Shown: one piece after another, positions 38,565 to 42,530 of the stretch
Layout of the letters: every line of letters begins with the position of its first letter
Numbering within the stretch: position 1 is the first letter of the stretch
Source of the DNA: an uncultured Archangium sp.
GTDB lineage: Bacteria > Myxococcota > Myxococcia > Myxococcales > Myxococcaceae
Direction: 5' to 3'
Assembly: GCA_903905455.1 (NCBI GenBank)
Contig: CAIVGN010000059.1
Location: 1 to 53,960 of the forward strand
Length of the DNA stretch: 53,960 bases
Notes under the pieces: model-generated
Seen by the model: only the letters and a program-made list of their open reading frames with translations
The model's database searches: none
Told to the model about the DNA's origin: nothing
Position numbers and translations under genes: made by a program

Positions 38565-40259
38565 TCACCGCTTGAGGGCGTGGCGCTCGATCTCCGCGAT
38601 GAGCGCCGCGAACTGCACCGGCTTGGGGAGGAACCCATCGAAGCCCGCGGCCAGCACCGCCGCCTGCTCCTCGACCAGCGCGTGGGCCGTGAGCGCCAGC
38701 ACTGGCGTGCGCGGCTGACCCTTCGCCTCCGCCGCCCGGATGCGCCGCGTGGCCTCGAAGCCATCCATCACCGGCATCTGCACGTCCATCAACACCAGGT
38801 CCCACTGGCGGCCTTCCATGCGCGCGAGCGCCTCCTGGCCGTCGTGCGCCACCTCGAAGTCCACCCCGAGCTTGGTGAGCAGCGCCGCGATGACCCGCTC
38901 GTTGATGCTGTTGTCTTCGACCACCAGCACCTGGACCGCACGTGACAGCCTCAGCTGCCGCGGCTCGTGCGTCGGCGCGGTCACGGCCTGCGTGGCCACC
39001 GCCAGGTCCACCTCGAAGCGGAAGGTGCTGCCCTCGCCCGGCGTGCTCTCGACCCACAGGCGGCCATTCATCAGGCCCACCAGCCGCCGGCAGATGGACA
39101 GGCCCAGCCCCGTGCCTCCGTACTTCCGCGTGGTGGAGCCGTCGGCCTGCTCGAAGGCGTCGAACACCCGGCCCAGGGCCTCGGGGGCGATGCCGATGCC
39201 GGTGTCCTTCACCCAGAACTGCAGCTGCTGCCGCCCCGCCACCGGTTCGCCCACCAGCGTCACCCCGAGGTCGACCGTGCCGGCATGGGTGAACTTGATG
39301 GCGTTGCCGTAGAGGTTGAGCAGCACCTGGCCCAGGCGCAGCTCGTCGCCCGCGAGGGTCGGGCTCACGCCAGCGCCCACCACGGTGTGACTGGCGAGGC
39401 CCCGCGCCACCAACCGCGCGCGCTGCGCCTCCGTCACCCGCGCCAGCAGGTGCTGCAGAGAGAAGGGCGCGTTGGACAGCGCCACGTGCCCCGCCTCGAT
39501 CTTCGAGAGGTCGAGTACGTCGTTGATGATGCCCAGCAGGCTCTCGGACGAGAGGTCGATGGCCTCGAGGTAGTGCTGCTGCTCTTCGCTCAGCGTGGTG
39601 GTGCGCAGCAGCTGGGCCATGCCCAGGATGCCGTTGAGCGGGGTGCGGATCTCGTGGCTCATGTTGGCGAGGAACGAACTCTTCGCCGCGTTCGCCTGCT
39701 GGGCGCGCATCCGCTCGGCGGCCTCGTCGTGGAGCTGGGTGCGCACGTCGTCGAGTTCCCGGGCCACGCCCATGGCGTTCTTCAGGGCCAGCGCGGCGTG
39801 GGCGAAGACCGTGGGCAGGTACTGCCGCAGCTCCTCCTGCGAGAGGCCCACGTCCTCGAGGCGCAGCCCGCCGATTACCTCCTCGCCGGCCACCAGCGGC
39901 ACCAGCCACGTGTAGCTCTCGCGGTGCACGAGGTGGGGGGCGGTGGTGCCCGCGACCTCGAAGGGCGTCTTGGTGGACAACGCCCGCAACAGGTCGGGGT
40001 CGGCGATGGCCTCGAGGCGCTCGCGCCGCCCCAGCACGTCGGCGACTTCCCAGCGCCCCGGCCCGCCCCACACCAGGGTGAGGTTGGTGCCGCCCAGCAC
40101 CTCCATCAGCCCGGTGAGCATGTCGCGCACCAGCGTGTCCACGTCGACCGAGGCGCTCAGGCGCGTCATCAGCCGCACCACCAGCTCGAGGAACGACTTG
40201 TCCCGGGCCACGCGAATGAGCCGGGCCTCCAGCTCTTCCCGGGTGCGCAGCTTCGTCAC
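38565..40259 (-). CDS. Hybrid histidine kinase with GAF domain, last gene of the corrinoid operon
   Basis: 564 residues from a GTG at 40259 that overlaps the DUF1638 stop (GTGA). No membrane helix. A GAF-like domain fills residues 20-165 ([39 protein letters not shown]). Coiled linker, then the H box [13 protein letters not shown] (His 202), N box [25 protein letters not shown]. The receiver has [10 protein letters not shown] and Asp 492 ([11 protein letters not shown]) with Lys in LPKPV. It is soluble and is made together with a corrinoid protein, a methyltransferase and DUF1638, so it may sense the state of that pathway, perhaps by binding its components. Confidence 0.92.
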
Positions 40260-40840
40260 GCGCGCACCTCCGCCAGCAGCCCGCGCACCACGCGCTCGAG
40301 GTGGTCCAGGTCGACGTCCAGCCACTCGAGGGGCAGCCCCGCCGCCTCGCTGGCCGCCGTCGCCGCCGCGGTGAAGTCGCCCGAGCACGGGGTGCGCAGC
40401 GCGAGCACGCGGGTGTGCGCGCCGCGGAAGATCTCCCGCACCAGCTCGGGGCGATCGCCGAAGGTGGTGGTCAGCGCCTGTGTCCACGTGCGCGCCCACG
40501 GCTCGAGCAGGAAGTAGGCCCCCGCGGTGAGCTCCGCCGCGTAGCGCTCGGGCCCCAGCAACATCTCCACGCAGTTGAGCGCCCGGGTGCGCGGCGTGCC
40601 CCGCGCGGCGAGCCAGGTGTCCAGGCCCGGGTGACAGGCGCCGAAGAAGACGCCGGGCTTACGCGGGGCGGTGCGCTCCAACTGCGCGCCGAACACCCGC
40701 TCCAACTTCGGGAGATCGAGGTGCAGCGCCGGCCCCAGCAGCTCGGCGTCGAAGGTGAGCCCCCGCTGCGCCTCGAGCCACTGCAGCTCGCGACGGAGGA
40801 TGCCGCAGCCGATGATCAGCGGGCGCGCCGGGGCGGTCAT
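40256..40840 (-). CDS. DUF1638-family protein
   Basis: 194 residues from the ATG at 40840, which overlaps the stop of the UroD-like gene (ATGA). Marks: [34 protein letters not shown] and [13 protein letters not shown]1638 proteins regularly sit beside corrinoid proteins and methyltransferases of the methanol/methylamine type, but their reaction is not known. Several conserved Cys (CGIL, ACHPG, NCVEM, TPCSG) suggest metal or corrinoid binding. It is coupled at both ends to neighbours in the operon. Confidence 0.8.
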
Positions 40841-41865
40841 TTGGTCGTCCCGAGCTCGAGCGCGGCGTCGACCATGGCGTGGATCTTCTCTTCGGGAATG
40901 CCCAGCGGCATCACCAGGCTCCCGAAGAGGAAGTGCCCTCCGGGCATGCCCGCGGCGAGCATGCGGGCCACCTCGGCGCGCACCTCGTCGTTCGACCAGC
41001 GCAGCAGCTTGATGTCGTTGAGCACGCCGCAGCACAGCGCCCGGTCGGAGGTCAGGCGCTTGGCCTCGGCCACCTCGTCGAGCGGGCTCAGGTAGAACGC
41101 GCGCAGCCCGGTGCGGTTCAGCACCGCGTCGATGGTCGGCGTCACCCGCGCCCCGCCGCAATAGAAGACCATCCCCTCCGCGCCCACTGCTTCGATGTCC
41201 CGCTGCACCCACGCCAGGGCCTCGTCGCGAATGAAGCGCGCGGGCATGAAGTCGGTCGAGGCGAAGGGGTTGGCGTAGATCACCACCTGGGCCCCGGCCT
41301 CGCGGTAGGCGCGCACCTCCTTGACGAAGAAGTCGTGGCACTTCTCGAGCAACGCCGACCGCTCGGGCGTGGGCGGCCCCAGGAGCACCGGCATCCACTT
41401 CTCCATGCCCAGCAACATCGCCGGCAGGGTCATGGTCGAGGTGATGTAGGCGCAGATGGGGTAGCGACCGCCGACCTCCCGCTTGAGCATCTTCAGGCAG
41501 CGCGCGGGCTGCTCGAAGGCCGGGTGGCGCGCCACGTCGTCGGGCACGATGACCTTGTCCACGTCGTCCATGGACTTCATCACCATGTGCCCCACGTTCG
41601 GCGGTCCCTCGGCAGAGTAGATCATCGCCTCGCAGCCCAGCAGCTCCGCCTCGCGGCCCACGTAGAACAGGCTCCACACGTTGTCGTAGCCGTACTTCTC
41701 GCGCAGCCTCAGTTGCGCCTCGGCCACCCGCTCCCCGTCGGCGAAGTACTCCCTGGGCGCCAGGCCCAGCTCCCGCGCGCCCTGGTCGAGGAGGTTGCAG
41801 AACACGGGGATGCGGTCGACCGGCCGGCCCTCGATGGTGGCGATCAACCGTTCGAGCGCAGTCAT
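40837..41865 (-). CDS. UroD-family (MtaA/MtbA-like) methyltransferase
   Basis: 342 residues from the ATG at 41865. Family marks: NVGHMVMKSMDDVDKVIVP, SLFYVGREAELLGCEAMIYS, and RYPICAYITSTMTLPAMLLG. The zinc-binding pattern H-x-C...C of the MtaA/MtbA class is only partly kept: FYCGG (234-238) and CCGVLN (278-283) supply Cys, but Phe 234 stands where His is expected. Family enzymes move a methyl group between a corrinoid protein and a thiol such as CoM or tetrahydrofolate-linked acceptors. The overlaps with DUF1638 (ATGA) and the corrinoid protein support a shared complex. Confidence 0.85.
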   Translation of the reverse strand: MTALERLIATIEGRPVDRIPVFCNLLDQGARELGLAPREYFADGERVAEAQLRLREKYGYDNVWSLFYVGREAELLGCEAMIYSAEGPPNVGHMVMKSMDDVDKVIVPDDVARHPAFEQPARCLKMLKREVGGRYPICAYITSTMTLPAMLLGMEKWMPVLLGPPTPERSALLEKCHDFFVKEVRAYREAGAQVVIYANPFASTDFMPARFIRDEALAWVQRDIEAVGAEGMVFYCGGARVTPTIDAVLNRTGLRAFYLSPLDEVAEAKRLTSDRALCCGVLNDIKLLRWSNDEVRAEVARMLAAGMPGGHFLFGSLVMPLGIPEEKIHAMVDAALELGTTK

Positions 41866-42530
41866 GGCTTCACCTCCTTGATCAACCCGGCCACGGCGTT
41901 GACCGCCTCGAGCCCGTTGCGCGCGAAGGCGTCGGCCCCCACGGTGCGAAAGAGGTTCTCGTCGAAGAGGTACGGCGCCCCGCCCACGATGACCTTGATC
42001 CGCCCCTCGAGGTTCCGCTCCTTGAGGAGCGCGCGCACCCCCTTCGCCGCCTGGGCCCCGGTCGCGGTGTGCACCATCAACGACGAGATGCCGATGACCT
42101 GCGCGCCCAGGCGCACGGCCTCGTCCACGAAGCGGTGCGCGGTCACGTTGAGCCCCAGGTCGGTCACCTCGAACATGCCCGCCTTGAGGCACCCCACCAC
42201 GATGCGCTTGCCCAGCCCGTGGAAGTCGCCCAGCGCCGAGCCGATGACCACCGTGCCCGACGAGACGTGCGCCTTCTGGAAGAGCGGCAGCATGCGCTCC
42301 ACCACGTCGGAGCTGATCTGCGAGGCGAGGAAGTGCTGCGCGAGGCTCGTCGCCCCGTCCTCCGCCGAGCGGTTCATCAGGTTCTCCATGGTGGGCAACA
42401 CCACCCGGAACACCACGTCCTCCGGGCCCACCCCCGCGTGGACCGCCTCCTCGATGACTCGCAAGGCCTGGCCGCGGTCCGTGTCGAACAGCGCGTCGCC
42501 GTAGGCCTGGGTGATTTGCTCGATTCGCAC
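41862..42530 (-). CDS. Corrinoid-binding protein (MtaC/MtbC-like), first gene of the operon
   Basis: 222 residues from a GTG at 42530, chosen because GGAGGTGC precedes it by a good ribosome-site distance. An N-terminal helical domain (residues 1-85) is followed by the B12-binding domain with DFHGLG (102-107, the DxHxxG motif whose His 104 ligates cobalt), SSLMVHTATGAQ (149-160) and VIVGGAPY (181-188). Standard length for the MtaC type. It carries the methyl group on its cobalamin. The gene overlaps the methyltransferase by four bases. The 153-base divergent gap upstream should hold the operon promoter; no site is recognised. Confidence 0.9.
   Translation of the reverse strand: MRIEQITQAYGDALFDTDRGQALRVIEEAVHAGVGPEDVVFRVVLPTMENLMNRSAEDGATSLAQHFLASQISSDVVERMLPLFQKAHVSSGTVVIGSALGDFHGLGKRIVVGCLKAGMFEVTDLGLNVTAHRFVDEAVRLGAQVIGISSLMVHTATGAQAAKGVRALLKERNLEGRIKVIVGGAPYLFDENLFRTVGADAFARNGLEAVNAVAGLIKEVKP

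Follow-up and report, generated by a model that had tools for sequence, protein, structure and literature searches.

A corrinoid protein paired with a methyltransferase of the uroporphyrinogen decarboxylase (UroD) family is found in the MtaABC, MtbA/MtbC, CmuA/CmuB and MtgABC systems. In the mec dichloromethane cassette, a kinase, MecA, stands in one cluster with the corrinoid protein MecB and the UroD-type proteins MecC and MecE (PMC9768040), and in CarH, AerR and the photocobilins a B12-binding domain controls a signalling output, partly by protein contact. In roseobacters, DUF1638 proteins go with the split MetH/MtgC systems (PMC5764234, PMC12478193). The split B12-dependent methionine synthase of Phaeobacter requires a DUF1638 gene together with a RamA-like protein, and DUF1638 mutants are methionine auxotrophs linked to B12 reactivation; the authors made no specific proposal for the function of the protein (PMC5764234). 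Here we describe four adjacent genes in a contig of 53,960 nucleotides from an uncultured Archangium sp. (Myxococcota; genome size 8.6 Mb), the whole of which we call the window. They encode a corrinoid protein, a UroD-family protein, a DUF1638 protein and a soluble hybrid histidine kinase. We suggest, with a probability of about 0.6, that the four genes form one sensory unit, in which a corrinoid trio derived from methyltransferases would be the input read by a GAF-coupled kinase.

The unit occupies positions 38565-42530 of the minus strand (Table 1). From 5' to 3' the order is corrinoid protein, UroD-family protein, DUF1638 and kinase, and the genes overlap by exactly 4 bp at each of the three junctions (ATGA, ATGA and GTGA), just as a preliminary description of this DNA had stated. 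Third-position GC of 0.96-0.97 in each of the four frames indicates that they are real coding frames. Because the cytidylate-kinase-like gene upstream (42684-43403) is divergent and the gene downstream of the kinase is convergent, the unit consists of these four genes, and the recurrence of their order across phyla indicates that the grouping is more than chance.

Our searches used corrinoid or UroD profiles only, so that a signalling neighbour was not selected for by any kinase query. Pattern scans could not be built on UroD alignments, which were too diverse, and a fusion-type corrinoid alignment served instead. With this profile, a scan of public genomes recovered 36 loci, and the module is spread over seven bacterial phyla (Thermodesulfobacteriota, Chloroflexota, Pseudomonadota, Lentisphaerota, Acidobacteriota, Actinomycetota and Myxococcota) and the Asgard archaea (two Lokiarchaea). 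UroD-profile searches found loci in 9 out of 395 genomes of Desulfobacterota, 10 out of 350 of Chloroflexota and 9 out of 321 of Gammaproteobacteria, and a protein search added one locus on an Azoarcus plasmid. Single-protein scans gave no matches for the window UroD protein in genome contigs or for DUF1638 in viral contigs, and Myxococcota matches to A1 near E 1e-20, mostly HemE housekeeping genes, were set aside. Altogether 66 loci were parsed, 64 of them extending 2 kb or more beyond UroD on its downstream side; full-length UroD rows number 63 and correspond to 52 sequences at 85% identity. The corrinoid gene lies beside and upstream of UroD in 61 out of these 64 loci, and a histidine kinase, GGDEF or Cys-rich signalling module follows within 3 kb on the same strand in 58, a count that should be read knowing that the seed loci of the profile searches all had a signalling neighbour.

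The association often goes as far as gene fusion. DUF1638 was detected in 41 loci and is joined in frame to a GAF-like domain or an output in 29. DUF1638 and kinase are a single polypeptide in L008, L009 and L012, whereas the output is exchanged elsewhere: in L033, DUF1638 is joined to a GAF-like domain and a Cys-rich C-terminal module, and in L096 it heads a DUF1638-GAF-PAS-PAS-HD-GYP protein. In L094, a longer, more distal kinase open reading frame comes directly after DUF1638. L094 and L096 are additional to the 58 loci counted above. The outputs found on this one input are HisKA and HisKA_2 kinases, hybrid kinases, GGDEF, HD-GYP and the Cys-rich module. The last of these (consensus LPICSxCKKIRDDxGYWxQIExYIxxHSxAxFSHxICxxC; no Pfam model matched in the one protein checked alone) replaces the kinase in 18 loci, for example L041:8717-9454. 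In the two Lokiarchaeal genomes (L069:6992-9799 and L073:7001-9677) it accompanies a corrinoid-UroD-GAF-PAS arrangement. A constant input whose outputs are exchanged, and which is also fused to them, is what usually marks a sensory module, and for this reason we favour signalling over metabolism. The proposal of the preliminary description that the output is signalling is thus well supported, and is the best reading of a kinase association that is conserved across phyla.

The same pattern is seen among the closest relatives of the window locus. In a maximum-likelihood tree, the window UroD protein falls in a clade of eight (support 100/100) whose members, from Myxococcota, Desulfobacterota and Gammaproteobacteria, keep the separate-gene operon; a GAF-kinase gene is present in seven out of eight, and L092 repeats all three 4-bp overlaps exactly. 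The kinase, which had been suggested to belong with the trio, is therefore conserved beside it in these three groups. Four further Myxococcota genomes have a kinase or another signalling protein after the corrinoid-UroD pair, and the window genome itself has a second copy on contig C222 (L008:8184-12923), a single overlapping run of REC-HDOD, corrinoid protein, UroD and DUF1638-GAF-kinase fusion.

Two individual copies have features of their own. In Thiorhodococcus minor, the DUF1638-kinase fusion is followed by a 392-aa protein with a second B12-binding domain (L068:11865-13043). In Desulfamplus magnetovallimortis (L040, G195:C5:251917-252582) a stop codon interrupts the UroD gene, a copy that may be decaying or mis-sequenced.

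The kinase of the window has intact motifs, and no transmembrane-like segment was found in it (highest 19-residue Kyte-Doolittle mean 1.37). Pfam does not find a GAF domain in this protein. An AlphaFold2 model of residues 1-190 (predicted local distance difference test, pLDDT, 83) has GAF domains as its top PDB matches (best Foldseek E 3.8e-7), so the label "GAF-type" given earlier is right. The same domain occurs in the kinases of orthologous operons at 24-38% identity. Since its profile matches that of the fusion-type GAF-like domain (hhalign probability 92.6% over 159 columns), the separate-gene and fusion architectures probably use one GAF lineage.

The two proteins at the head of the operon resemble parts of a methyl-transfer system. 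Corrinoid binding by the first is expected because all of its corrinoid-binding residues are kept: D102, H104 and G107 of the DxHxxG lower-ligand motif, S149 and the GGA motif are identical in 38 out of 38 aligned homologues. Its nearest solved structure is the trimethylamine corrinoid protein 7xcn, and its score against TIGR02370 (methyltransferase cognate corrinoid protein), 95.3 bits, does not reach the curated cut-off of 215.3. The UroD-like protein has MtbA (4ay7) as its best solved-structure match, is related also to uroporphyrinogen decarboxylase, and with 99.1 bits does not reach the cut-off of 235.4 for TIGR01463 (MtaA/CmuA). The zinc ligands that bind the thiol acceptor, which we take from MtbA to be His-x-Cys and a distal Cys, are not kept in the window protein, where F-Y-C is found and no distal Cys. 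The full His-x-Cys...Cys set is absent from all 63 UroD homologues, and HIC is retained in two metabolic outgroup rows of the alignment. With its score below the family cut-off and the zinc set lost, the protein is, on these characters, not a thiol-acceptor methyltransferase of the MtaA/CmuA type, and a plain MtaA/CmuA enzyme was dropped as a candidate.

The AlphaFold2 model of DUF1638 is of high confidence (pLDDT 95.8) and shows a Rossmann-like alpha/beta fold, with no confident structural relative (best Foldseek E 2.2e-3); its match to LacI-type folds (VIA Z 8.3, 3.0 A over 106 residues) is at the level of a common fold. The fold therefore gives no function. Three cysteines are nearly invariant (C12 in 38 out of 38 rows, C69 in 32 and C90 in 36) and could hold a metal or cluster.

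We propose that corrinoid methyltransferases gave rise to a cytoplasmic input module made up of the corrinoid protein, the UroD-like protein and DUF1638. In this model, the UroD-like barrel would dock on the corrinoid domain and exchange a methyl group or other ligand with the cobalt. DUF1638, with its three conserved cysteines and the link of its family to corrinoid reactivation, would report to the GAF domain whether the cobalt is free, methylated, reduced or oxidised, and so change autophosphorylation of the kinase and phosphotransfer to its receiver (REC) domain. DUF1638 suggests itself as the coupler, being the member of the trio that is fused to kinases. Gene order, overlaps, conservation, fusions, kept residues, intact kinase motifs and exchanged outputs can be read from the sequences; corrinoid binding, contact of the three proteins with the kinase and signalling as the function are inferred. 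If the function is signalling, these parts would lend themselves most naturally to sensing a methyl donor by way of the cobalt, through its methylation or its redox state, and this sensed quantity is the least certain element of the proposal. One clue to it comes from the plasmid of Azoarcus sp. KH32C (L149, 250000-298000), where formylmethanofuran dehydrogenase genes flank the module on one side and a pyrroloquinoline quinone methanol dehydrogenase cluster on the other, in a methanol-oxidation island with Fae, Mch and RuBisCO genes nearby.

Several observations weigh against the idea of a single sensory unit. The Azoarcus setting is a clue and not a pattern, as no homologues of its one-carbon genes were found beside other loci. 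The Desulfotignum/Desulfamplus and Lokiarchaeal versions have no DUF1638, and in L011:9356-9736 this protein is cut to 126 aa, the middle gone, in an otherwise intact operon; it is therefore not essential to the module. The three UroD subfamilies differ at the zinc-ligand and pocket positions and may sense different things. Finally, two loci join the genes to the activase RACo. In gammaproteobacterium G1074 (L129:5852-9787), the eighth member of the window clade, RACo (PF14574), corrinoid protein, window-type UroD and DUF1638 follow one another with no adjacent kinase, possibly an enzymatic version of the trio; in G545 (L137:6921-14740), the order is REC, corrinoid protein, a more distant UroD, a RACo-like protein, histidine kinase and REC.

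These two loci are also what one would expect of a corrinoid methyltransferase of the usual metabolic kind that has a dedicated two-component regulator, an arrangement like that of mec, in which the kinase would control only the transcription of the enzyme genes. Substrate methyltransferases are indeed found in the UroD family, and in mec the enzyme genes come with a PocR-type kinase (PMC9768040). We nevertheless consider this explanation unlikely. It does not predict the fusions of DUF1638 to kinases, GGDEF and HD-GYP, and the operon has no response regulator with a DNA-binding domain. RACo/RamA (PF14574) gave no matches in the window genome or in four other myxobacterial carriers, whereas a metabolic-type corrinoid-UroD cluster in G087 has RACo inside it; among the other carriers, 13 out of 21 have RACo somewhere in the genome, as expected for anaerobes. 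No MttB-type methyltransferase (PF06253) was found in any of six genomes, including five Myxococcota carriers, MtaB-type enzymes not having been searched for. Moreover, clustering of the flanking genes revealed no recurrent metabolic partner, methyl acceptor or one-carbon gene beside the loci, and in a small control metabolic UroD-superfamily/corrinoid pairs from the same kinds of genome (two in L136, one each in L139, L141 and L142) had no adjacent kinase; L137, with RACo and a kinase, was part of this set too. The preliminary description had argued from the lack of a substrate-specific methyltransferase nearby. The MttB result bears this out for the window genome, but the argument is not safe alone, since the substrate methyltransferase can itself belong to the UroD family (CmuA, MecE; PMC9768040). 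Of the findings that the description named as refuting it, none turned up where they could be examined: the kinase is conserved next to the trio, the genes overlap and MttB is lacking. Its overall interpretation is supported in part, namely in the signalling role and in the place of the kinase with the trio, whereas sensing of the methylation state of the corrinoid is a hypothesis.

About equally unlikely, in our estimate, is a sensor of cobalt redox state or cobamide supply, in which the corrinoid would be the indicator and no methyl donor would be involved. Such a sensor would account for a corrinoid site that is fully kept while the MtaA/MtbA zinc site for thiol activation is gone, for myxobacterial genomes without an activase to hold Co(I), and for DUF1638 cysteines that could carry a metal or cluster. 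Against it, the UroD barrel is strongly conserved with invariant polar positions (D61, E72/E74 and N90), which suggests a specific small ligand or substrate, and no cobalamin riboswitch was found in the window. A light sensor, in which photolysis of an alkyl-cobalamin on the corrinoid protein would alter the kinase as in CarH or photocobilins, is less probable still: B12-based photoreceptors are known, control of a diguanylate cyclase through protein contact is reported for standalone photocobilins (PMC10979010) and some carriers are phototrophs (Chloroflexaceae, Viridilinea and Thiorhodococcus), but many others are anaerobes or from groundwater or sediment lineages (Desulfotignum, Desulfamplus and Lokiarchaeota), the module has no photoglobin, MerR or other photoreceptor domain (the 222-aa protein shows B12-binding domains only, with no CarH-type MerR DNA-binding domain), and a methyltransferase fold of the UroD family would be superfluous in a light sensor.

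Table 1. Genes and kinase domains of the four-gene unit, in window coordinates.
Feature	Position	Strand	Evidence
Corrinoid (B12)-binding protein, 1st gene, 222 aa, GTG start	41862..42530	-	PF02310 68.5 bits (cut-off 32.1), with DxHxxG; helical B12-binding_2 cap PF02607 21.9 bits, just under cut-off 23
UroD-family (MtaA/CmuA-like) protein, 2nd gene, 342 aa	40837..41865	-	PF01208, 147 bits
DUF1638 protein, 3rd gene, 194 aa	40256..40840	-	PF07796, 70.7 bits (gathering cut-off 27)
Soluble hybrid histidine kinase, 4th gene, 564 aa	38565..40259	-	HisKA, HATPase_c and Response_reg over Pfam cut-offs
GAF-like input domain of kinase, residues 1-190	39690..40259	-	AlphaFold2 and Foldseek
HisKA dimerisation/phosphoacceptor domain, residues 192-257	39489..39686	-	PF00512, 85.6 bits
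HATPase_c catalytic domain, residues 304-420	39000..39350	-	PF02518, 104.8 bits
C-terminal receiver (REC) domain, residues 444-557	38589..38930	-	PF00072, 90.1 bits

Elsewhere in the window, a group II intron domain matches RF02005 with 120.7 bits (29729-29930, plus strand).

If the four genes do act as a sensory unit, microbial sensing through vitamin B12 chemistry would be widespread, beyond its metabolic use; DUF1638 would have a second context, signalling, besides B12 reactivation; and many genes currently annotated as "uroporphyrinogen decarboxylase family protein", "cobalamin-dependent protein" or "ATP-binding protein" could be given a role. The Azoarcus locus, in its methanol-oxidation island, makes the question of the ligand directly testable. 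More tentatively, at somewhat less than even odds, the trio may be an undescribed class of sensory input that reads a methyl donor via cobalt and drives kinases, cyclic di-GMP enzymes and other outputs in the seven phyla and Asgard archaea. No description of a corrinoid-UroD-DUF1638 input module was found in the open-access literature searched, which leaves out preprints and most subscription papers.

Corrinoid methyltransferases and B12 photoreceptors are already known, and so are kinases that neighbour corrinoid genes, the last from mec (PMC9768040), so that the arrangement is not without precedent in the way first supposed: the kinase MecA is likewise encoded next to genes for corrinoid methyltransferases. 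The novelty lies in DUF1638 being fused to kinases and other outputs, and in conservation over multiple phyla. Compared with the MtaABC-type systems, the module here has no HxC...C zinc site, both proteins fall under the curated family cut-offs, the host genome has no activase, and a signalling protein is fused or overlapping. The mec cassette differs in that its kinase MecA has a PocR input domain, its regulator is separate and its genes make up a complete catabolic pathway, in which no DUF1638-kinase fusion is described (PMC9768040). CarH, AerR and the photocobilins are built on a single B12 protein with a DNA-binding or bilin-binding domain, whereas in this module the B12 protein is accompanied by a methyltransferase-type barrel and DUF1638. 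Soluble GAF hybrid histidine kinases share the domain order GAF-HisKA-HATPase-REC, but the GAF lineage described here is found beside, or fused to, corrinoid-UroD-DUF1638.

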